64,000 nucleotides of DNA from Rhodococcus sp. KBS0724 (lineage in GTDB: Bacteria > Actinomycetota > Actinomycetes > Mycobacteriales > Mycobacteriaceae), in the NCBI RefSeq assembly GCF_005938745.2, contig NZ_VCBX02000001.1:4974501-5038500 (forward strand), read 5' to 3'. The position numbers and the translations under genes were made by a program. Positions 10,830 to 30,172 of the stretch are shown piece after piece. Numbering within the stretch: the stretch's first letter is position 1; each line of letters starts with the position of its first letter. Under the pieces are notes generated by a model. It did no database searches. It was not told where the DNA came from and saw nothing but the letters and a program-made list of their open reading frames with translations.

Positions 10830-11876
10830 ATGCGTTCTCGTTCATTCAAGCGCGGCCGTGTGATCGCCGCGATTGCAGCGGTGTCCGTGCTGCCGATGCT
10901 TGTCAGTCCGGCCATGGCTTCTGCCGGTGGTGACACCGCTGCGACTCAGACCACACCCGCGGCGTACTCGACGGATTCCAAACTGACGAGCCGCAGCGAC
11001 AACGGCCGCAAGTCCACGATCACCGTGTACTCGCCGTCGATGGGCCGCGACATTCCGCTCGAGGTCATCCTCCCCGCAGACAACAGCGAACCCCGCCCGA
11101 CGCTCTACCTCCTCAACGGCGCAGGCGGCGGCGAAGACCGTGCGACCTGGCAGCGCCAGACCGATGTCATGGACTTCTTCAACGAGAAGAACGTCAATGT
11201 CGTCACGCCGATCGAAGGCGCGTTCAGCTACTACACCGACTGGGTGAACGAAGATCCGGCTCTCGGTGTTCAGAAGTGGCAGACGTTCCTGACGCAGGAA
11301 CTCCCGCCCGTCATCGACAAGGAATTCAACACCAACAAGGTGCAGTCGATCTCCGCGATCTCCATGACCGCCACGTCGGTACTCAACCTCGCGATCGCAG
11401 CCCCCGGCCTCTACAAGAGTGTCGGCGCGTTCAGTGGTTGCGCCGAGACCAGCACTCCGGTCGGCCAGAGCTCCATCGAACTGGTTGTCGGCATGCGCGG
11501 CGACGCAGACGTCACCAACATGTGGGGCCCGCTCGACGGCCAGGGCTGGATCGACAACGACCCGGTTGTCAACGCCGAGAAGCTCCGCGGCACCGAGCTG
11601 TACATCTCCACCGGATCCGGTCTGCCCGGCCCGCACGACACCCTCGCCAATGAGGCAGTCGACGGCCAGGTCGGCGTGCTCGCCAACCAGATCATCGTCG
11701 GCGGCGTCATCGAGGCAGCAGTCAACTACTGCACCCACAACCTCGCGTACCGTCTGAACGAACTGCAGATCCCGGCAACGTTCGACTTCAAGCCCACCGG
11801 CACCCACTCGTGGGGCTACTGGCAGGACGATCTCCACAACTCCTGGCCGATGATCGCCAACTCCATGGGCATCTGA
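10830..11876 (+). CDS. Mycolyltransferase / esterase of the antigen 85 family (copy 1)
   Basis: 348 residues. A positively charged signal peptide (residues 1-31) ends in 'SPAMASA', so the protein is exported to the cell envelope. The alpha/beta-hydrolase core has 'RPTLYLLNGAGGGEDRATWQ' near residues 89-108, the nucleophile elbow 'SAISMTATSVLNLAI' with the serine in the ISM triplet, and the C-terminal catalytic histidine in 'GTHSWGYWQDDL', the hallmark of Ag85/corynebacterial Cmt enzymes. The family moves mycolic acids onto trehalose, arabinogalactan or proteins. A tandem paralogue follows after 185 bp. GTGGAGG lies 11 bases before ATG 10830. Confidence 0.9.
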   Translation: MRSRSFKRGRVIAAIAAVSVLPMLVSPAMASAGGDTAATQTTPAAYSTDSKLTSRSDNGRKSTITVYSPSMGRDIPLEVILPADNSEPRPTLYLLNGAGGGEDRATWQRQTDVMDFFNEKNVNVVTPIEGAFSYYTDWVNEDPALGVQKWQTFLTQELPPVIDKEFNTNKVQSISAISMTATSVLNLAIAAPGLYKSVGAFSGCAETSTPVGQSSIELVVGMRGDADVTNMWGPLDGQGWIDNDPVVNAEKLRGTELYISTGSGLPGPHDTLANEAVDGQVGVLANQIIVGGVIEAAVNYCTHNLAYRLNELQIPATFDFKPTGTHSWGYWQDDLHNSWPMIANSMGI

Positions 11877-11942: not shown

Positions 11943-12061
11943 TGCTGCACGGAAGCTGGAACCACGAAACGCTCCCCTGACCATGGCAATTCTGGTTTAC
12001 TGGCCAATGACATCGACCCAGGTCACACACCGGGTTACACGTAGTGGAGGTTTCAGTTCGT

Positions 12062-13108
12062 ATGGGCGCTCGTACATTCACGCGGGGACGTTTGGTCGCT
12101 GCAGTCGCAGCACTGTCCGTGATTCCGATGCTGATCAGTCCCGCCATCGCCTCAGCGGGCGGCGATTCCTCAGGCACCACGGCACAAGCCACGTCAGGCG
12201 CCGCTGGTTCGTACCTGGCGAGTCGTAGCGACGTCGGCCGCAAGTCCACGATCGCCGTGTACTCGGCGTCGATGGGCCGCAACATTCCCCTCGAGGTCAT
12301 CCTCCCCGCGGACAACAGCGCACCGCGCCCGACGCTCTATCTCCTCAACGGCGCAGGCGGCGGCGAAGACTCCGCGACGTGGCAGCGCAAGACCGACGTG
12401 ATGAACTTCTTCCAGGACAAGAACCTCAACGTCGTGACGCCACTCGAAGGCGCGTTCAGCTACTACACCGACTGGGTCAACGACGATCCCGAACTCGGTC
12501 GTCAGAAGTGGCAGACGTTCCTGACACAGGAACTCCCGCCCGTCATCGACAAGGAATTCAACACCAACAAGGTCCAGTCGATCTCCGCGATCTCCATGAC
12601 CGCCACCTCGGTACTCAACCTCGCGATCGCAGCCCCCGGCCTCTACAAGAGCGTCGGCGCGTACAGCGGTTGCGCCGAGACCAGCACCCCGGTCGGTCAG
12701 GGTGCTATTCAGTTGGTCACCGGCGTCCGTGGCGGTGCCGACATCGCGAACATGTGGGGCCCGGTCGGTAGCCAGGGCTGGATCGACAACGACCCGGTTG
12801 TCAACGCCGAGAAGCTCCGCGGCACCGAACTGTACGTTTCTACCGGCTCGGGTCTGCCCGGCCCGCACGACACCCTCGCCAACCCTGCGATGAACGGCGA
12901 ACCCGCCAATCTGGCCAACCAGATCATCGTGGGTGGCCTCATCGAGGCGGCAGTCAACTACTGCACCCACAACCTCGCCTACCGTCTGAACGAGCTGCAG
13001 ATCCCCGCGCAGTTCGACTTCAAGCCCACCGGCACCCACTCGTGGGGCTACTGGCAGGACGATCTCCACAACTCGTGGCCGATGATCGCGCGTTCGCTGA
13101 ACGTCTGA
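12062..13108 (+). CDS. Mycolyltransferase / esterase of the antigen 85 family (copy 2)
   Basis: 348 residues from ATG 12062, exactly the length of copy 1; a GTG 18 bases earlier is in frame but overlaps the GGAGG ribosome-binding site. It has the same export signal (ending 'SPAIASA'), nucleophile segment 'ISMTATSVLNLAIAAPGLYK' and catalytic 'GTHSWGYWQDDLHNSW'. Long blocks are identical to copy 1 at the DNA level, for example around the nucleophile, while the ~20 residues after the signal peptide and residues ~215-235 differ. This points to a duplication with possible gene conversion of the catalytic core and divergence of a surface loop. Confidence 0.9.
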   Translation: MGARTFTRGRLVAAVAALSVIPMLISPAIASAGGDSSGTTAQATSGAAGSYLASRSDVGRKSTIAVYSASMGRNIPLEVILPADNSAPRPTLYLLNGAGGGEDSATWQRKTDVMNFFQDKNLNVVTPLEGAFSYYTDWVNDDPELGRQKWQTFLTQELPPVIDKEFNTNKVQSISAISMTATSVLNLAIAAPGLYKSVGAYSGCAETSTPVGQGAIQLVTGVRGGADIANMWGPVGSQGWIDNDPVVNAEKLRGTELYVSTGSGLPGPHDTLANPAMNGEPANLANQIIVGGLIEAAVNYCTHNLAYRLNELQIPAQFDFKPTGTHSWGYWQDDLHNSWPMIARSLNV

Positions 13109-16124: not shown

Positions 16125-17039
16125 CTATTCCAGGCTGCCCACGATCAGCGGGTCAGGCGTTCCGACGATGTCGTGGTCCTTGTTGTCGTAGTCGAACTGG
16201 CTCAGCACATGTCGCATCGCGTTGATCCGGGCGCGCTTCTTGTCGTTGCTCTTGATGACGGTCCACGGTGCGGTTGCCGTATCGGTGAACCTGATCATCT
16301 CTTCCTTCGCCGCGGTGTACGCATCCCACTTGTCCAGGGACGCAATATCCATCGGGGAGAGTTTCCACTGGCGCACCGGATCGACCTGGCGAATCGCAAA
16401 CCTCGTCCGCTGCTCGAGCGGCGACACCGAGAACCAGAACTTGATGAGGCTGATGCCGTCGTCGACAAGCATCTGCTCGAAGAGCGGCACCTGACGCAGA
16501 AAACGATCGTGCTCCTCGTCCGTGCAAAACCCCATGACGCGCTCGACTCCGGCCCGGTTGTACCAGGAGCGATCGAACATCACGAGCTCACCGGCCGCCG
16601 GGAGGTGCTGCACGTAGCGCTGGAAATACCACTGCGTCGACTCGCGCGCCGACGGCTTTTCCAGTGCAACGACGCGTGCGCCACGAGGATTGAGGTGTTC
16701 CATGAAGCGCTTGATGGTGCCGCCCTTGCCTGCTGCGTCGCGTCCTTCGAACACAATCGCGTGGCGGGCACCGGTTTCCTTGGACCAATTCTGCAGCTTC
16801 AGCAGTTCGATCTGCAGGAGACGCTTGGCGATCTCGTACTCCTCGCGTGACATCCGAGAGTCGTACGGGTATCCCTCGCGCCAGGTATCGACCTCGAAAC
16901 CCTCTGGTGCCGTGAGCAACACGGGGTCGTCGTCGTCACTGTCGTCGACGGTGAATGCCGTCGTGTCTGTCAGGTCCACCGCGCTCGACAGGTCGGCGAA
17001 GGCACTGAGGAAGGGACGGCGCTCTGCTGTTTCGGTCAT
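16125..17039 (-). CDS. ppk2: Polyphosphate kinase 2
   Basis: 304 residues from ATG 17039 (MTETAERRP); a few upstream in-frame codons exist but lack support. PPK2 features are all present: Walker A 'GRDAAGKGGTIKRFMEHL', Walker B-like 'ELVMFDRSWYNRAGVERVMG', the lid region 'FSVSPLEQRTRFAIRQ', and 'WKLSPMDIASLDKWDAYTAA'. It is a single-domain PPK2 that transfers phosphate between polyphosphate and nucleotides in the cytosol. An acidic N-terminal stretch (DDSDDDD) precedes the domain. In corynebacteria a ppk2 gene flanks porA/porH, which is relevant for the small peptides found 400 bp away. Confidence 0.93.
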   Translation of the reverse strand: MTETAERRPFLSAFADLSSAVDLTDTTAFTVDDSDDDDPVLLTAPEGFEVDTWREGYPYDSRMSREEYEIAKRLLQIELLKLQNWSKETGARHAIVFEGRDAAGKGGTIKRFMEHLNPRGARVVALEKPSARESTQWYFQRYVQHLPAAGELVMFDRSWYNRAGVERVMGFCTDEEHDRFLRQVPLFEQMLVDDGISLIKFWFSVSPLEQRTRFAIRQVDPVRQWKLSPMDIASLDKWDAYTAAKEEMIRFTDTATAPWTVIKSNDKKRARINAMRHVLSQFDYDNKDHDIVGTPDPLIVGSLE

Positions 17040-17177: not shown

Positions 17178-17381
17178 ATGACATTCGAGAGCAACACACC
17201 ACGCCCCTTCACCCGATCCACCGAAAACAAGATGTTCGCCGGAGTGTGCGGCGGGATTGCAGAATACTTTGACGTCGACGTCAATTTGGTGCGCGTTCTG
17301 GCTGTTATCGCCGCCGTGTGCACCGGCGGAACCGCAGCCTTGGTTTATCTTGCAGCCTGGATGCTGATGCCTTTGGGATAG
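17178..17381 (+). CDS. PspC-domain small membrane protein
   Basis: 67 residues. The whole protein is a PspC domain: 'KMFAGVCGGIAEYFDVDVNLV' (residues 19-39) followed by one long hydrophobic segment 'VLAVIAAVCTGGTAALVYLA' that could span the membrane once or twice, ending in 'WMLMPLG'. PspC proteins take part in envelope stress signalling. It is divergent from ppk2 and convergent with the small-peptide modules; a hairpin separates it from them. Confidence 0.88.
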   Translation: MTFESNTPRPFTRSTENKMFAGVCGGIAEYFDVDVNLVRVLAVIAAVCTGGTAALVYLAAWMLMPLG

Positions 17382-17400
17382 CGCACTCGAGAAAAGAATT

Positions 17401-17436
17401 GCGGGGCCCACACATTTCGCGCGTGGACCCCACAAT
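17401..17436. terminator. Hairpin between PspC gene and peptide module 2
   Basis: GGGG.CCAC (17403-17411) pairs with GTGG.CCCC (17423-17431), and the flanking bases extend the stem imperfectly. It lies 16-20 bp beyond the stop of the 47-residue peptide, and its GGGGCCCA core resembles the hairpin at 17981-18013 after the first module. Confidence 0.7.
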
Positions 17437-17451
17437 CAAGAAATTCTCGAC

Positions 17452-17595
17452 TTACTTGGCAGCTTTGAGTGTTCCGCCACTGAGTTCGGCAAGCGCCGTC
17501 AAGCCTTTGACAGCGATCTCGCTGACACTTCCTAGTCCCTGGCCGATAAGAGTTCCGACCGAACCCGCAGCATCCATTACGGAGCCTTCAATCAT
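17452..17595 (-). CDS. Small amphipathic peptide, 47 aa, module 2 (possible PorA/PorH-type mycomembrane peptide)
   Basis: 47 residues from ATG 17595, preceded by AAGGAG at seven bases. The peptide begins MIEGSVMDAAGSVGTLIGQG and ends in a short lysine-containing tail. It is almost identical to the peptide at 18032-18178, differing at about seven positions and by one residue in length. It has no signal peptide and no cysteines; glycine and serine recur every few residues on one helical face and aliphatic residues on the other. Its position between ppk2 and groEL2 is the porA/porH position in corynebacteria. Function is inferred from size, character and location, not from sequence identity. Confidence 0.7.
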   Translation of the reverse strand: MIEGSVMDAAGSVGTLIGQGLGSVSEIAVKGLTALAELSGGTLKAAK

Positions 17596-17654
17596 GTTTG
17601 TTCTCCTTCTATCCACCCAGTTACGGGATGGTCAGATAATTCAGACCTGCAAGA

Positions 17655-17846
17655 CTACGGAGCAACAACGGCGGGTGCGAAACTGATTGCGTCAAAAGAT
17701 CCGGAGATCCCACCGAATGTGTCACTCAACGAGCCGAACAAGTTGGCACCCATGTTATCCAACCCTAACAGTACATTCACCAGGGCTTGAGTTGCGGTTT
17801 CGCCATTCTCCATGACATAACCGAGGATGTTTACCAGCGACCCCAT
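17655..17846 (-). CDS. Small amphipathic peptide, 63 aa, module 2 (possible PorH-type peptide)
   Basis: 63 residues from ATG 17846 with GAGGAG six bases upstream; the 15 extra in-frame residues further upstream are not supported. It starts MGSLVNILGYVMENGE and shares a conserved core 'GLDNMGANLFGSLSDTFGGI' with the 63-residue peptide at 18238-18429. The tail is hydrophobic and proline-ended (AVVAP). The 59-bp gap to the following 47-residue peptide gene equals the gap in module 1. No export signal is visible; corynebacterial PorH and PorA also lack one. Alternative readings are a bacteriocin-like or toxin-like peptide. Confidence 0.7.
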   Translation of the reverse strand: MGSLVNILGYVMENGETATQALVNVLLGLDNMGANLFGSLSDTFGGISGSFDAISFAPAVVAP

Positions 17847-17980
17847 TTTTGACTCCTCAACAGAAAACTTGCGGAAATTGCCTATCAGCACGGTAGCGGC
17901 AAAACTGAAATTCAGTGGTGAAACGGAAGATTGTTTTTCTATCAGCGATGTCGGAGCGTAAATATGCAGGTCCAGAGCAT

Positions 17981-18013
17981 TTGGGGCCCGTGCGCCGTGC
18001 GCCCAGGCCCCAA
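17981..18013 (-). terminator. Hairpin after peptide module 1
   Basis: TTGGGGCC (17981-17988) pairs with GGCCCCAA (18006-18013). It starts 19 bp downstream of the 48-residue peptide stop on the minus strand, the same relative position as the hairpin after module 2, so the terminator was part of the duplicated unit. There is no clear T-run, so it could instead be an mRNA-stabilising stem. Confidence 0.6.
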
Positions 18014-18031
18014 AAGGAAACTCGAAACTGG

Positions 18032-18178
18032 CTACTTACCGGCAGCCTTGAGTTCTCCACCGCTCAGCGCAGCAAGAGCGGTGAGGCCCTTGACGGCGAT
18101 GTCCGCAACGCTGCCCATACCCTGGCCGATAAGGGTGCCGACGGAACCCGCAGCATCCATGACGGATCCTTCAATCAT
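18032..18178 (-). CDS. Small amphipathic peptide, 48 aa, module 1 (possible PorA/PorH-type mycomembrane peptide)
   Basis: 48 residues from ATG 18178 with AGGAG seven bases upstream. It begins MIEGSVMDAAGSVGTLIGQG, then 'MGSVADIAVKGLTALAALSG', and ends with a basic tail containing three lysines. It is the paralogue of the 47-residue peptide in module 2. Synonymous differences between the copies (for example GGA/GGC and GTC/GTA near the start) show that the peptide sequence is under selection. Several serines at GS steps are candidates for O-acylation if the peptide resembles PorA/PorH. Confidence 0.72.
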   Translation of the reverse strand: MIEGSVMDAAGSVGTLIGQGMGSVADIAVKGLTALAALSGGELKAAGK

Positions 18179-18237
18179 GTTGTACTCCTATATATCTGTT
18201 GAGTGAAGTGGATGTGCCAACTGCTCAGATTGCAGGA

Positions 18238-18429
18238 TCAAGCTGGCGGGATAACTTCAGGCAGGAAACTAATCGTGTCGAGAGATCCGGAGATCCCGCC
18301 AAATGTGTCACTCAGCGAGCCGAATAGATTAGCACCCATGTTATCCAAGCCCATCAGCATGTTGAGAAGGCTCCCCAACTGAGTGCCCATCCCGTCTGGT
18401 CCAAGAAGAATGTCCATCAAAGAACCCAT
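18238..18429 (-). CDS. Small amphipathic peptide, 63 aa, module 1 (possible PorH-type peptide)
   Basis: 63 residues from ATG 18429, with AGGGAG eight bases upstream. It starts MGSLMDILLGPDGMG, followed by a Met/Leu-rich helix and the core 'GLDNMGANLFGSLSDTFGGI' shared with the module 2 paralogue, then 'SGSLDTISFLPEVIPPA'. It is first in the minus-strand cluster, about 220 bp downstream of the WS/DGAT gene; that gap is A+T-rich and could hold a separate promoter. It resembles PorH of corynebacteria in size, composition (N, G, D, F, L rich) and location. Confidence 0.72.
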   Translation of the reverse strand: MGSLMDILLGPDGMGTQLGSLLNMLMGLDNMGANLFGSLSDTFGGISGSLDTISFLPEVIPPA

Positions 18430-18651
18430 TGTCTGAACTCCCTACGTAGAAGGCTCCCCACCCGACCGCCAAAGAATCGGTTCCGGTGAAGGTTCACCGT
18501 TGATGTGTCATCTGCGACTTTAGTGTTAACCCTAGAACCTGTGTCCGAAATGAACGATTAACGTAAATTTTCCAATTTTTGAAACACTTTCCCGGCCAAG
18601 GAACCGCACTGCCCACAACAATTCCGGCCTGCCGGGCACCTGACCGGAAAA
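18430..18651 (-). promoter_or_regulatory. A+T-rich leader of the peptide modules
   Basis: 222 bp without a gene between the WS/DGAT stop and the first peptide. It is visibly richer in A+T than its surroundings (18480-18590). Read on the minus strand it contains GGTTAACACTAAAGTC (18516-18531); an ACTAAAGT octamer also occurs 390 bp ahead of the second peptide cluster. It is a likely promoter region for the peptides, though -35/-10 boxes could not be fixed. Confidence 0.4.
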
Positions 18652-20094
18652 TCATTCGGCAGCTGGGACGTCGTACTCCACGGCTTGCCGCAACTCGTCG
18701 AAACTCTCGCGCAGCAGCACGACATAATGCTCCGGATCCGGCATCGCTCCCCGCGCCACGATGACATTGAGCGTCAGGGAACCTCCGGCCGCGGCAATCA
18801 GAAAGTGGCGCAGAACATCTCCGTCAACAGGAGCCTGCCCACCCAACACGGCAACAGCGGGCGCACCCTCGAACACGTTCCCGTCGATCGTCACCGGGAC
18901 GTTGCTGATCGTGGTGTGCTGCATGACCTCGCGGTCCGTGTTCAGCTTGTTGAGGCGCCTGGCCAGCCCGGTCAGCCGCAGCAACGGCGCAGGTGACGTC
19001 TCGATGCGTGTGCTGAATTTCCGTACCGCCAAATGTGAGCTACGTTCCTTCGCGACCTGCGCAGAATCCCGGATAAGCGCCAGTTTCTCCACCGGATCCG
19101 CAACGTCGGAATGGAGATCGACGGTCAGGAGTGCAAGCTGATTGGCCGACTCCCATTCTGCAATCTGCCGCATCGAGCGCGGAACCATGGCTGCGAGAGG
19201 GCGTTCCGGTCGCTCGCCCTTCTCCTCGAGATACTTCTCGAGCGCACCGGCCACCACCGCCAGGAAGATATCGTTCACCGTCGCCCCAGGTACGGCTGCT
19301 CGGATCGCCTTGATATCAGCGCCGTCGAGCGTTACGAACTCCAGCGCCAGATCACCTTCCAGCACGTGGTTGAAACGTGTCGGCGGACGGTCTGCGACGT
19401 ACTTCGCCAACTCTCCGGATTCCTCCGCCTGCGTGATCTCCTCTGCCGCTACCTTTGTCGCCGACAGGCCCTTCCCGAACCGGATCAGTTGCCCTGGGAA
19501 CCCGAGAACGCTGCGCCCCATCATCTCCACCAGCGGCAGCCCCGACTCCCGCGCAGATGCCTTGGGTTTGGCCGGCCCCGAGAACAATCGGTTGGTGAGA
19601 TTCCTGATCTCCAGACCGTCGCCCGCGCTGTGGTGCGTCTTGAGCATGATCAAGGTCAAGTCACCGGGGAGATCGTCAATTCCGCTGATTCCGGTCATGA
19701 CCTCCAATTCCCAGGGAGGCCGCGTCAGATCCATCGGCGCGCTCAGAGACCGGCCCAACAATGCCCGCACCGGCGCCCACCCCGGCCCCGATGCCTTGTG
19801 CACCCGAACATGATCATCGACAGTGAAATCAGCGGCCGGTACCCAGTACGGATAGTCCAGATCGAGAGGAACTCGCTGCACTCTGCTCGTGAACAGCGGC
19901 CAGTAGCCGAACCGCTCGGAAATCCATCGGACCGCGTCGGCGTGTGTCATGTCGGCCAGCGGATGGCCCGCAGTGTCGAAGAAGTACGCGCACACCATGT
20001 GACTGAGGTGCCCCTCGGACTCGTTGTAGATGAACTCCGCATCCCGCGGGCCCATCTGAGATACCCCGGCTGACAACGAGTTCCGAAAGATCAT
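18652..20094 (-). CDS. Wax ester synthase / diacylglycerol acyltransferase (WS/DGAT), copy A
   Basis: 480 residues from ATG 20094. The catalytic HHxxxDG motif is His154-His155-x3-Asp159-Gly160 in 'MLKTHHSAGDGLEIR', preceded by 'RPPWELEVMTGI' and followed by 'NDIFLAVVAGAL' and the C-terminal 'NVPVTIDGNVF'-type strand, the standard layout of the bifunctional WS/DGAT family. It esterifies acyl-CoA to diacylglycerol or fatty alcohol for storage lipid at the membrane. The N-terminus is slightly longer than usual (MGPRDAEFIYNE is the common start). The small-peptide modules follow it on the same strand. Confidence 0.92.
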   Translation of the reverse strand: MIFRNSLSAGVSQMGPRDAEFIYNESEGHLSHMVCAYFFDTAGHPLADMTHADAVRWISERFGYWPLFTSRVQRVPLDLDYPYWVPAADFTVDDHVRVHKASGPGWAPVRALLGRSLSAPMDLTRPPWELEVMTGISGIDDLPGDLTLIMLKTHHSAGDGLEIRNLTNRLFSGPAKPKASARESGLPLVEMMGRSVLGFPGQLIRFGKGLSATKVAAEEITQAEESGELAKYVADRPPTRFNHVLEGDLALEFVTLDGADIKAIRAAVPGATVNDIFLAVVAGALEKYLEEKGERPERPLAAMVPRSMRQIAEWESANQLALLTVDLHSDVADPVEKLALIRDSAQVAKERSSHLAVRKFSTRIETSPAPLLRLTGLARRLNKLNTDREVMQHTTISNVPVTIDGNVFEGAPAVAVLGGQAPVDGDVLRHFLIAAAGGSLTLNVIVARGAMPDPEHYVVLLRESFDELRQAVEYDVPAAE

Positions 20095-22751: not shown

Positions 22752-24473
<1,722 letters not shown>

Positions 24474-27859: not shown

Positions 27860-27908
27860 TGACAAGAACGAGTCATTTCCGAGCATTTTCTGATAAAAGG
27901 AGTGAATG

Positions 27909-28049
27909 ATGGGAAGTTTGGGATCGGTAGCTGATGTCCTTAATGGTCCGATGGGATTATTTGTCAAGTCGATAGTCGCCGCCGTGATGTATAACCCAGT
28001 AATGTTCTCTGTCGATTTAGGCTGGGTACCTCCGCCAATCGAAGTGTAG
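27909..28049 (+). CDS. Small hydrophobic peptide B2, 46 aa
   Basis: 46 residues from ATG 27909; the ATG directly before it (27906) is too close to the AAGGAG at 27896-27901. The start MGSLGSVADVLNGPMG matches the MGSL start of the two 63-residue peptides in the first cluster. It continues with a hydrophobic helix and a tryptophan/proline-rich end (GWVPPPIEV). It is 49 bp after B1. No homologue is recognised; it is called on the strong ribosome-binding site, the shared N-terminus and its place in a row of similar small frames. Confidence 0.6.
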   Translation: MGSLGSVADVLNGPMGLFVKSIVAAVMYNPVMFSVDLGWVPPPIEV

Positions 28050-28146
28050 TTGGCACTCCTAGGTTCAATCAGTTCCTGAAGCTCGTTGACCTCGGCTAAA
28101 TCTTTGCCAATCAACGAAATCACCAACAGTAAGGATGTGAAAGATA

Positions 28147-28341
28147 GTGGATACAGCAAGTTTGTTCAGCGCGCTAGCTAGCATTGATCCCAACTCAATC
28201 CAGCTCCCACTGGCGGCTGTGACTGCCATCATCGATGGCGTGTTCGACACCATTTCCGCCTTCATCAACCTGGGCGTAACAGGCTCCGGAGCTTCAGCCG
28301 AACTCATCCAAGTGGGCCTCGGCTCCATCGCCGGCGCGTAG
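28147..28341 (+). CDS. Small amphipathic peptide B3, 64 aa
   Basis: 64 residues from GTG 28147. The sequence alternates Ser/Gly/Asp with aliphatic residues: 'DTASLFSALASIDPNSIQLP', then a helix 'AAVTAIIDGVFDTISAFINL' and a glycine/serine-rich tail ending GSIAGA. Its length and character are close to the 63-residue peptides of the first cluster and to corynebacterial PorH. The AAGGA at 28131-28135 is eleven bases from the GTG, which is long. It is followed after 15 bp by B4, so the two are probably translated from one mRNA. Confidence 0.6.
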   Translation: MDTASLFSALASIDPNSIQLPLAAVTAIIDGVFDTISAFINLGVTGSGASAELIQVGLGSIAGA

Positions 28342-28356
28342 TCGGGAGAGGAAACA

Positions 28357-28467
28357 ATGCTCAATATCTTTCTAACGTACCTGTCCGAATTGGTCGGTTT
28401 CGGCTCTGTTGATTTGGTTAGTACGTTTGGAACTTACCTAACCGCGCTGTCATCGTACCCAGTTTAA
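28357..28467 (+). CDS. Small hydrophobic peptide B4, 36 aa
   Basis: 36 residues from ATG 28357 with GAGAGG six bases upstream. It begins MLNIFLTYLSELVGFGSVDL, with aromatic and aliphatic residues throughout, and ends SSYPV. It is below the length most gene finders keep. Size and aromatic/hydrophobic character are like corynebacterial PorA (45 residues). It starts 15 bp after B3 and ends 16 bp before B5. Confidence 0.6.
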   Translation: MLNIFLTYLSELVGFGSVDLVSTFGTYLTALSSYPV

Positions 28468-28483
28468 ATAAAGGAGATTCCTG

Positions 28484-28576
28484 ATGATTCAGAGGTATCT
28501 GATCGCATTGGTGGGCTTTGTCTCGGGACTTGCAGGGCTGACCAATATGGGGAGTGGCATGATACAGAACAAGTAG
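28484..28576 (+). CDS. Small hydrophobic peptide B5, 30 aa
   Basis: 30 residues from ATG 28484, preceded by a perfect AAGGAG seven bases away, the best ribosome-binding site in the cluster. It begins MIQRYLIALVGFVSGLAGLT, a single membrane-length hydrophobic segment, and ends in a polar QNK tail. It is the last frame before a strong terminator at 28613-28662. Its length alone would give little confidence; the ribosome-binding site and operon position support it. Confidence 0.55.
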   Translation: MIQRYLIALVGFVSGLAGLTNMGSGMIQNK

Positions 28577-28711: not shown

Positions 28712-30172
28712 ATGAGATTGTCCAACCCATTGGCTAGGGGCGTTGAACCGTTGAACCCACGCGATGCCGACTTCATCTACAACGAAGCCGACGGGCACCT
28801 GGGCCACCTCATCGGCGTGTACTTCTTCGAAACCTCGCAGCACCCAGAGGCGGAATTCTCGGAAGAACAAGCGATCGAGTGGGCAACCGCACGCCTCGGT
28901 CACAACCGCATGTTCACACAGCATATTCAGCGGACACCACTTGGCCTCGAACATCCGCATTGGATCCCCGCACTAAACTTCGATGTCCGTGACCACGTTC
29001 GGGTCACCAACATCACCGAATCTGGCTGGGAACCTTTACAAAAGCCGCTCAGCAAGCTGTTGACCTCCAGGATGGATCTAGCTCGTCCACCCTGGGAGCT
29101 GCATTTCTTCAACGGAATAGAAGGATTGGACGATCTGCCTGGTCGTCTGACGGCTGTAGTCCTCAAATCGCATCATAGCGGCGCTGATGGCATTGCCATC
29201 CGAATGTTGGGTGAGGCCATTTTTTCGGAGAATTTGCGGCAAGCGAGTTTCGACCCCGCAATGCCTTTCGTGAAGAGTCGTGTGTTCCTCAAATCAGTCC
29301 TGGGATTTCCACGACAAATTTTGCGATTCACTAAGCATATCCCTGGCAATCGAGCCGCAGAAAGAGCTGTAGCCGATGCAAAAGCTGCCGGCGATTGGGT
29401 CGAGAGTCTCAAAGAACGTCCAGCCACCCGATTTAACGGCAAGGTAAGTGGGTCCGGAACTCTCAAGCAGATCACGCTCCCGGGAACAGAGGTGCGGCAG
29501 GTCAAAGATGCGGTACCCGAGGCCACGATTAACGATGTCTTGTTGGCCGTCGTCGGCGGCGCCTTGATGCGGTACCTCACCGAGAATGGAGAAAAGCCCG
29601 AGGGTTCTCTCGTAGCGATGGTGCCTAGGTCCATGCGCAAAGTCGAGGAATGGGAGTCGGCAAACCAGTTAGTGACGTTGTCTGTCAATATGCACACAGA
29701 CATCGAAGATCCGTTGGAACGGGTGGCGCTCATTGCGGAGTCCGCCCGCTCGGAGAAGACCCGCACCTCTCACCTAGCAGTCCGCCGCGTGAACGCCGCG
29801 ATTGAGACCATCCCGGCCCCACTGTCCCGATTGTTCGCAACAGCACGTGCGAAGAACCCCTATGATTTGAATCGTCCTCGCTACCAGCACACAACGGTGA
29901 GCAACATTCCGCTTTCTGTCGATGGGCTGACCTTGAACGGCGCGCCCGGCACAGCGGTGCTCGCTACCCAACCGCCAGTAGACGGGGATGGACTGCGGCA
30001 CTTTATGGTTGCCGCAGCTGGCGGAGGGTTGACGTTGAACGTAATTACGGACACTGCGATGATGCCGGATCTGGGCCACTACCTGGAGTTGCTTCGCGCC
30101 AGTTTCGCGGAACTCAAGGAAGCGGTCAACAGCCGCGAATTGGAGAGTGGAGCTGCCGAGATCGCATCCTGA
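28712..30172 (+). CDS. Wax ester synthase / diacylglycerol acyltransferase (WS/DGAT), copy B
   Basis: 486 residues from ATG 28712 with AAGGAG. HHxxxDG occupies His154-His155-x3-Asp159-Gly160 ('VLKSHHSGADGIAIRML'), the same numbers as in copy A at 18652-20094. The two share 'PRDA(E/D)FIYNE', 'MDL(T/A)RPPWEL' and the C-terminal layout, so they are paralogues. Codon use is slightly more A+T-rich than copy A, as is the region around it. It should make triacylglycerol or wax esters. The small-peptide cluster lies directly upstream, while in copy A it lies downstream. Confidence 0.92.
   Translation: MRLSNPLARGVEPLNPRDADFIYNEADGHLGHLIGVYFFETSQHPEAEFSEEQAIEWATARLGHNRMFTQHIQRTPLGLEHPHWIPALNFDVRDHVRVTNITESGWEPLQKPLSKLLTSRMDLARPPWELHFFNGIEGLDDLPGRLTAVVLKSHHSGADGIAIRMLGEAIFSENLRQASFDPAMPFVKSRVFLKSVLGFPRQILRFTKHIPGNRAAERAVADAKAAGDWVESLKERPATRFNGKVSGSGTLKQITLPGTEVRQVKDAVPEATINDVLLAVVGGALMRYLTENGEKPEGSLVAMVPRSMRKVEEWESANQLVTLSVNMHTDIEDPLERVALIAESARSEKTRTSHLAVRRVNAAIETIPAPLSRLFATARAKNPYDLNRPRYQHTTVSNIPLSVDGLTLNGAPGTAVLATQPPVDGDGLRHFMVAAAGGGLTLNVITDTAMMPDLGHYLELLRASFAELKEAVNSRELESGAAEIAS

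Follow-up and report, generated by a model that had tools for sequence, protein, structure and literature searches.

A tandemly duplicated pair of short Gly/Ser-rich genes in the ppk2-groEL2 interval of a Rhodococcus genome: a candidate mycomembrane peptide system of the PorHA kind

Introduction

What do four very short genes between ppk2 and groEL2 of a Rhodococcus genome encode, and could they be a counterpart of the PorA/PorH peptides of Corynebacterium, where porH-porA is located between the same two genes (PMC3792995, PMC5944148)? As described in PMC5310785, Cmt1/MytC of C. glutamicum lipidates both PorA and PorH, neither of which has a signal sequence; PorA is mycoloylated at S15 and PorH at S56, PorA labelling needs MytC, and channel activity depends on PorA mycoloylation. 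The mycoloylated serines sit in Gly/Ser contexts (PMC11066868), and an AlphaFold2 prediction builds the pore from five PorH and five PorA (PMC12632848). The accessible text of PMC5310785 and PMC11066868 presents protein O-mycoloylation as demonstrated in Corynebacterium only and calls its occurrence elsewhere open. The window, by which we mean the whole 64,000-nucleotide stretch analyzed, comes from a 7.25 Mb genome with a PPK2 that shares 99% identity with the protein of Rhodococcus globerulus NBRC 14531. Members of the family make mycolic acids, and Nocardia, Rhodococcus and Gordonia have known MytC/Cmt1 orthologues.

Results

Two tandem modules on the minus strand

A sequence-only reading had proposed that four minus-strand frames form two copies of one module, which the ORF coordinates confirm. 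Module B consists of pep1-B (18238..18429, 63 aa with an MGSL start, in the PorH-like place of the pair; ORF list, purifying selection and profile), pep2-B (18032..18178, 48 aa with a MIEGS start, in the PorA-like place) and a hairpin with a GGGGCC stem at 17980..18014, called on folding energy. Module A repeats this layout of pep1, gap, pep2 and hairpin, with pep1-A at 17655..17846 (63 aa; ORF, selection and profile), pep2-A at 17452..17595 (47 aa; ORF and selection) and a terminator-like hairpin with a T-rich tail at 17397..17437, all again on the minus strand. The fixed gap of 59 bp between pep1 stop and pep2 start was found in both window copies, as it was in both R. globerulus copies, and measures 63 bp in five other genomes. 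The hairpins fold at -27.6 kcal/mol (z -2.7) and -35.8 kcal/mol (z -7.6), and hairpins also lie 3' of the modules in R. erythropolis NBRC 15567 and Rhodococcus sp. ARC_M6. Here the earlier reading held for the hairpins themselves but not for their distance of 16-20 bp, since the main stems in the window start slightly nearer, ~17 and ~14 nt past the stop codons.

A scan with a strict filter for short Gly/Ser-rich ORFs led by a Shine-Dalgarno (SD) sequence returned seven in the window, namely the four module peptides, each with the SD noted for it, and three at 27.9-28.5 kb; the same scan of the reversed window returned 0. The suggested Ka/Ks comparison came out in favor of the genes, with dN/dS of 0.00-0.33 for pep1 and 0.00-0.36 for pep2 in comparisons with computable dS. 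Synonymous sites are often saturated between species and the peptide sequences are nonetheless conserved. Both genes are under strong purifying selection, and we have hardly any doubt that pep1-pep2 is a real gene pair.

None of the four peptides has a cysteine or, judging the N-termini by inspection, a signal sequence, as had been claimed. The description "amphipathic" fared less well, as the best 18-residue helical moment of 0.35-0.40 is equalled by 7-13% of same-residue shuffles. Searched up to E 1, neither Pfam nor NCBIfam had a match to any of the four peptides, and none of them matches the MspA porin family PF09203 of Pfam. Gene conversion between copies A and B was considered and rejected, with 2 sites per peptide for it and 48 and 14 against. 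A profile comparison of pep1 with pep2 gave 18% probability, a value that 0/40 column shuffles reached, and from their sequences the two may be distant paralogues.

The interval and its neighbors

The modules do lie between ppk2 (16125..17027, minus strand) and groEL2 (22752..24473, minus strand) as the sequence-only reading stated, yet five other genes share the interval: a PspC-domain gene between modules and ppk2 (17178..17381, plus strand), a gene of the WS/DGAT acyltransferase family immediately upstream of the modules (18652..20094, minus strand), an IclR regulator, a glyoxalase-family gene and a DUF559 gene. Two Cmt1/MytC-type mycoloyltransferase genes stand in tandem on the plus strand, at 10830..11870 (ends taken from the search match) and 12044..13108. 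The second of these is a candidate lipidating enzyme, with an E of 3e-83 against Cmt1 and 6e-32 against Antigen 85-A.

The three further ORFs of the scan belong to a second peptide cluster on the plus strand, with peptides of 47 aa (27906..28049), 64 aa (GTG start, 28147..28341) and 36 aa (28357..28467), and immediately downstream of it lies a second WS/DGAT-family gene (28712..30172, plus strand). The cluster as a whole (27906-28576) holds these SD-led Gly/Ser peptides and perhaps another of 30 aa, and by eye they are unrelated to the modules. Similar clusters occur in R. globerulus (L086 2230-2716), R. erythropolis (L089 4078-4651) and genomes G001, G012 and G013.

Distribution within the genus

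Two tandem modules are also present in R. globerulus, and a single module in R. erythropolis NBRC 15567, Rhodococcus sp. P-2, Rhodococcus sp. ARC_M6 and genomes G012 and G016. Conservation in related genomes is nevertheless partial, with pep1 detected by profile search in 10/28 genomes of the genus and the slot copy broken or absent in three of those ten (G022, G023 and G013; loci L027, L030 and L026). At the slot of G022 pep2 is frameshifted and pep1 truncated; at that of G023 pep1 is cut by a deletion beside a WS/DGAT remnant while pep2 is intact; and at that of G013 a pep2 fragment alone remains. Each of the three carries a pep1 match elsewhere in its genome. G001 and G012 have a second, Nocardia-like pair immediately before two mycoloyltransferases. 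The window genome has a tandem mycoloyltransferase locus (L278) resembling the peptide-bearing L284 and L285, and no peptides were found in the stretch of it that was read.

Other porins exist in the genus, where MspA-family genes were found in 27/28 genomes, with one such gene in the window genome. The 10 pep1-positive genomes have fewer of them than the 16 others (P 0.0016; G017 and G019 dropped as incomplete), a difference confounded by clade.

A pair shared by seven genera

With E up to 0.05 allowed, 72/401 family genomes matched a 12-sequence pep2 profile, the weakest matches including many chance-like ones in long frames. At all 18 pep2-match loci examined (17 from new genomes and one, G348, that had supplied a pep2 row to the profile), a pep1 of MGS or MLGS type stands 44-78 bp upstream, pep1 being absent from the query. 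Another 20 loci, nine of them wider stretches of genomes counted before, showed the pair in 10/11 new genomes, and tandem pairs were seen at L240, L241, L242 and L066. With a 24-sequence pep1 profile 64/401 genomes matched, 62 of them credibly, across seven genera (g1, g4, g10, g14, g22, g23, which is Nocardia by the identity of contig G295:C23 with record L106, and g25); G054 and G399 were set aside with matches inside frames of 448 and 602 aa. A pep2 match follows within 420 bp in 63/76 pep1 places (6 weaker rows omitted) and a pep1 lies upstream in 62/75 pep2 places (8 weaker rows, E 0.0274 and up, omitted), counts that are partly circular in that the pep1 profile was built from pairs reached through pep2. 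An order-wide sample of 259 genomes from 72 genera gave two matches outside the family, both partial and in frames of 279 and 674 aa. The pair is thus a conserved unit in seven genera. Plasmid-borne spread of the module was rejected, as a search of PLSDB gave no match.

For the alignments, 54 filtered pairs were reduced under manually set rules to 42 for each peptide, the window included, 2 pep1 and 2 pep2 sequences with another start codon were then removed, and near-duplicates were omitted by hand to leave A4 (24 rows) and A3 (28 rows). In pep1, M1, G2, S3, G37 and S38 are invariant and D29 is also conserved. In pep2, G11, S12, S23 and S39 are nearly invariant, S39 falling within a C-terminal LSGG motif common to Rhodococcus and Nocardia.

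Some side observations were made at these loci. In g10, more MGS-starting peptides of 34-50 aa occur some kb downstream of the pair (L232 9560-10243, L233 9182-10130, L234 8979-9944), and so these clusters can contain more than two such peptides. Near the modules of genomes G085 and G111, both strands encode additional short Gly/Ser peptides with an SD (L066 10960-15180, L068 8781-10317), several starting MGS, MFGS or MEGS. Finally, the record "Kitasatospora arboriphila NRRL B-24581" (L104) looks mislabelled, since over 18.9 kb it shares 95.8% identity with Williamsia muralis NBRC 105860.

Linkage to a mycoloyltransferase and a WS/DGAT enzyme

Outside the genus, 16/23 module loci have a same-strand mycoloyltransferase-family gene downstream, 14 of them at 80-320 bp, and 17/23 have a WS/DGAT gene within ~2.3 kb (23 genomes of six other genera, distances from tblastn ends; L233 was omitted, the ORF filter giving no pair there). 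Among 48 background loci centred on ppk2 and lacking the module, the corresponding counts are 4/48 and 0/48, the 56 ppk2-centred loci having been picked by hand from the ppk2 places listed. Fisher P values of 2e-7 for the mycoloyltransferase and 1e-11 for WS/DGAT serve as a guide only, the two sets differing in phylogeny and stretch length. By genus, the mycoloyltransferase is present in g23 8/8, g10 4/4, g22 2/2, g25 1/1, g14 1/4 and g4 0/4, and 5/23 loci have neither enzyme, one of these five being on a 4.9-kb contig.

With Corynebacterium Cmt1 recognized by its match to PDB 4h18/8qhf (E 1e-184), 15/22 module-locus mycoloyltransferases (a set that includes those of L233) have Cmt1 as their best Corynebacterium match together with an insert 7 or more residues long. 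That insert is missing from the other 7/22, 5 of which match another Corynebacterium enzyme best. Counted per locus, 14/23 have an insert-bearing Cmt1-type enzyme, L236 and L239 showing the other type only. The insert, which may correspond to the MytC loop of the literature, is partly present in two further Corynebacterium enzymes (L273, L274) and thus not exclusive to Cmt1. Recurrent linkage of the pair to a Cmt1-type mycoloyltransferase and a WS/DGAT enzyme is shown for other genera.

The arrangement in the window clade is looser. Here, and likewise in R. erythropolis and R. globerulus, ~4.3 kb separate the modules from the Cmt1-type genes, which run on the opposite strand and hence are neighbors of the modules without forming an operon with them. 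In G085 (g14) two modules start 404 bp past groEL2; farther on come a prolyl oligopeptidase and a mycoloyltransferase, an arrangement also seen in the window. In a FastTree tree with midpoint root, the module-linked WS/DGAT enzymes and both window copies split from the genome's three other paralogues. The WS/DGAT partner might supply or attach another acyl group, or it might signal a role in lipid bodies.

Comparison with PorA and PorH

Synteny with porA/porH was borne out, both by PMC3792995 and by 40 Corynebacterium loci (from 59 genomes with a ppk2 match), whose intervals hold two peptides in 23 cases, one in 10 and none in 7 under the ORF filter. Under the same filter, ppk2 and groEL2 adjoin without such peptides in, for example, R. 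tibetensis and Antrihabitans, so that the slot by itself carries little weight. Most of the pairs in other genera lie outside the groEL2-ppk2 slot. We also observed different tiny peptides at the same place in other genera (L040, L041, L042 and L084 upstream of ppk2; L073), including glycine-zipper-like ones in genus g6, one genome of which is Rhodococcoides kyotonense. For the L073 peptide there is a weak match to PorACj_fam, which at E 0.029 falls below the cut-off.

The proposed profile search against PorA/PorH families went against the earlier reading. The window peptides gave no match to NCBIfam porH_1, porH_2, pora_1 or PorACj_fam at E up to 1, and the R. erythropolis peptides none in NCBIfam at E up to 5. 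In hhalign comparisons of pep1 and pep2 with profiles of 18 PorH-like and 15 PorA-like sequences, chosen by hand from the 40 loci, probabilities were 0.1-2.2%, and with 40 column shuffles each we reject PorA/PorH sequence homology. The highest value (pep1 versus porA, 2.2%, E 0.021) was equalled by 1/40 shuffles. The sensitivity of this test is limited, as porH versus porA themselves reach just 6.8% and one outlier shuffle stood at ~130 in two comparisons. Missing homology does not exclude function, given the precedent of PorACj and PorACur, which were found via the groEL2-ppk2 slot once BLAST had failed and were later shown to be channel-forming (PMC3792995, PMC5944148).

Discussion

Our preferred reading, to which we give a probability of about one half, is that each module specifies a two-component, signal-less mycomembrane peptide system, with pep1 PorH-like and pep2 PorA-like, that would be O-mycoloylated and most likely form a pore. 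The PorHA scheme fits the window peptides best because they come as a two-peptide unit with conserved serines in Gly/Ser contexts and Cmt1-type partner enzymes, in a family that makes mycolic acids. By analogy, pep1 and pep2 would be made together and cross the inner membrane by the route that PorA and PorH use, after which a mycoloyltransferase of the Cmt1/MytC type would transfer a mycolic acid to one of the conserved serines that stand in Gly/Ser contexts, the candidates being S3 and S38 of pep1 and S12, S23 and S39 of pep2. Once acylated, the peptides could come together in the mycomembrane, where they would most likely build a hetero-oligomeric pore or a pore-like surface complex, of which the window genome would hold two tandem versions. 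Export, O-mycoloylation, mycomembrane location and pore formation are inferred, and the parts of this scheme differ in strength. We think it highly likely that the products are envelope peptides and probable that they are O-mycoloylated, whereas the case for pore formation falls slightly short of even odds.

The sequence-only reading had spoken of a PorA/PorH-type system in two versions, and of this the slot, gene order, sizes and lack of a signal sequence stand while membership of the sequence families does not. The interpretation is strengthened by recurrence of the pair in seven genera and by the downstream mycoloyltransferase in 16/23 loci outside the genus. Speaking against it are the missing PorA/PorH homology, a helical moment not above that of shuffles, the presence of pep1 in just 10/28 genomes of the genus, the low mycoloyltransferase counts of g4 (0/4) and g14 (1/4), enzymes on the opposite strand in the window clade, the mostly different location of the pair in other genera, the MspA-family porins found across the genus, and an insert that Cmt1 shares in part with other enzymes.

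Three other explanations were weighed. The strongest is that pep1 and pep2 are mycoloylated surface peptides resembling ProtX that, without being channel-forming, coat the mycomembrane, stabilize it or link it to the cell wall. Linkage to Cmt1-type enzymes would be equally expected of such peptides, and their helical moment is unremarkable, but in their strict pairing and their porH-porA slot the two peptides resemble a channel and not ProtX, and we judge this explanation unlikely, at perhaps half the weight of the preferred one. Less credible again is a cytosolic coat on wax-ester or triacylglycerol inclusions made by the neighboring WS/DGAT enzyme. It would account for the WS/DGAT genes near the module (17/23 against 0/48 in the background), the missing signal sequences and the second signal-less peptide cluster beside the window's other WS/DGAT gene; the other recurrent neighbor, however, is a secreted-type mycoloyltransferase, and the modules occupy the porH-porA slot. 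Storage lipids, moreover, spread more widely than this family, whereas the matches outside it are two partial ones in long frames, and a lipid-body role is thus improbable. A leaderless two-peptide bacteriocin, or another antibacterial or toxin-like pair, would explain why two short Gly-rich peptides keep a fixed order and spacing, but is very improbable for chromosomal genes found in many species of each of several genera, absent from PLSDB, linked to envelope enzymes, without a transporter or immunity gene among the identified window neighbors and without a double-glycine leader on inspection (with which leaderless types are compatible).

If the two-component mycomembrane reading is right, pep1 and pep2 are candidate O-mycoloylation substrates outside Corynebacterium, with conserved candidate serines and, in several genera, a physical tie to the candidate enzyme, and the pair offers a direct test of whether protein O-mycoloylation occurs outside Corynebacterium. 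Structural comparison with PorHA would also gain another set of tiny paired mycomembrane proteins, unrelated to it in sequence, and the recurrent WS/DGAT partner may be the sign of a step still missing from the scheme, in the supply of acyl groups or in acylation of the peptides. The channel of R. erythropolis is reportedly about 8.4 kDa in size, and the unmodified pep1 and pep2 of that species are 6.0 kDa and 4.4 kDa. A cell-wall channel of R. erythropolis is mentioned in PMC3792995. More tentatively, and with clearly less than even confidence, we suggest that paired MGS/GS-type peptides are a hitherto undescribed class spanning the family and a main native substrate of Cmt1-type O-mycoloylation outside Corynebacterium, encoded in a dedicated WS/DGAT-pep1-pep2-mycoloyltransferase cluster and forming PorHA-like pores unrelated in sequence to PorA/PorH, the long-unassigned small cell-wall channel of R. 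erythropolis among them. Our literature search of titles and abstract openings found no description of such Rhodococcus or Nocardia peptides; most subscription papers were outside its reach, and absence is therefore unproven.

Among known systems, the MspA-family porins (PF09203), for which a role in mycomembrane permeability of Rhodococcus has been proposed (PMC9233653), differ in being ~20 kDa proteins with a signal peptide, and the window peptides do not match this family. ProtX (Cg2875) of C. glutamicum, a small signal-less peptide lipidated by MytC, is alike in being small and in lacking a signal, but is not described as a pair, the comparison being by description only. PorACj and PorACur are likewise tiny signal-less peptides in the same slot, but each is a single peptide, and the window peptides do not match PorACj_fam. 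The closest likeness is to Corynebacterium PorA/PorH, with two short co-directional genes, the longer first, of roughly 40-70 aa in the groEL2-ppk2 slot, no signal sequence, serines in a Gly/Ser context and a Cmt1-type enzyme in the genome. The window peptides differ in having no detectable sequence homology to them, in being richer in Gly/Ser and in their tandem duplication, and the pair in other genera differs in being linked to a mycoloyltransferase and a WS/DGAT gene. The sequence-only interpretation is partly supported and widened, and the module is best read as a sequence-unrelated variant of the PorHA kind of mycomembrane peptide system, accompanied by a probable lipidating enzyme.
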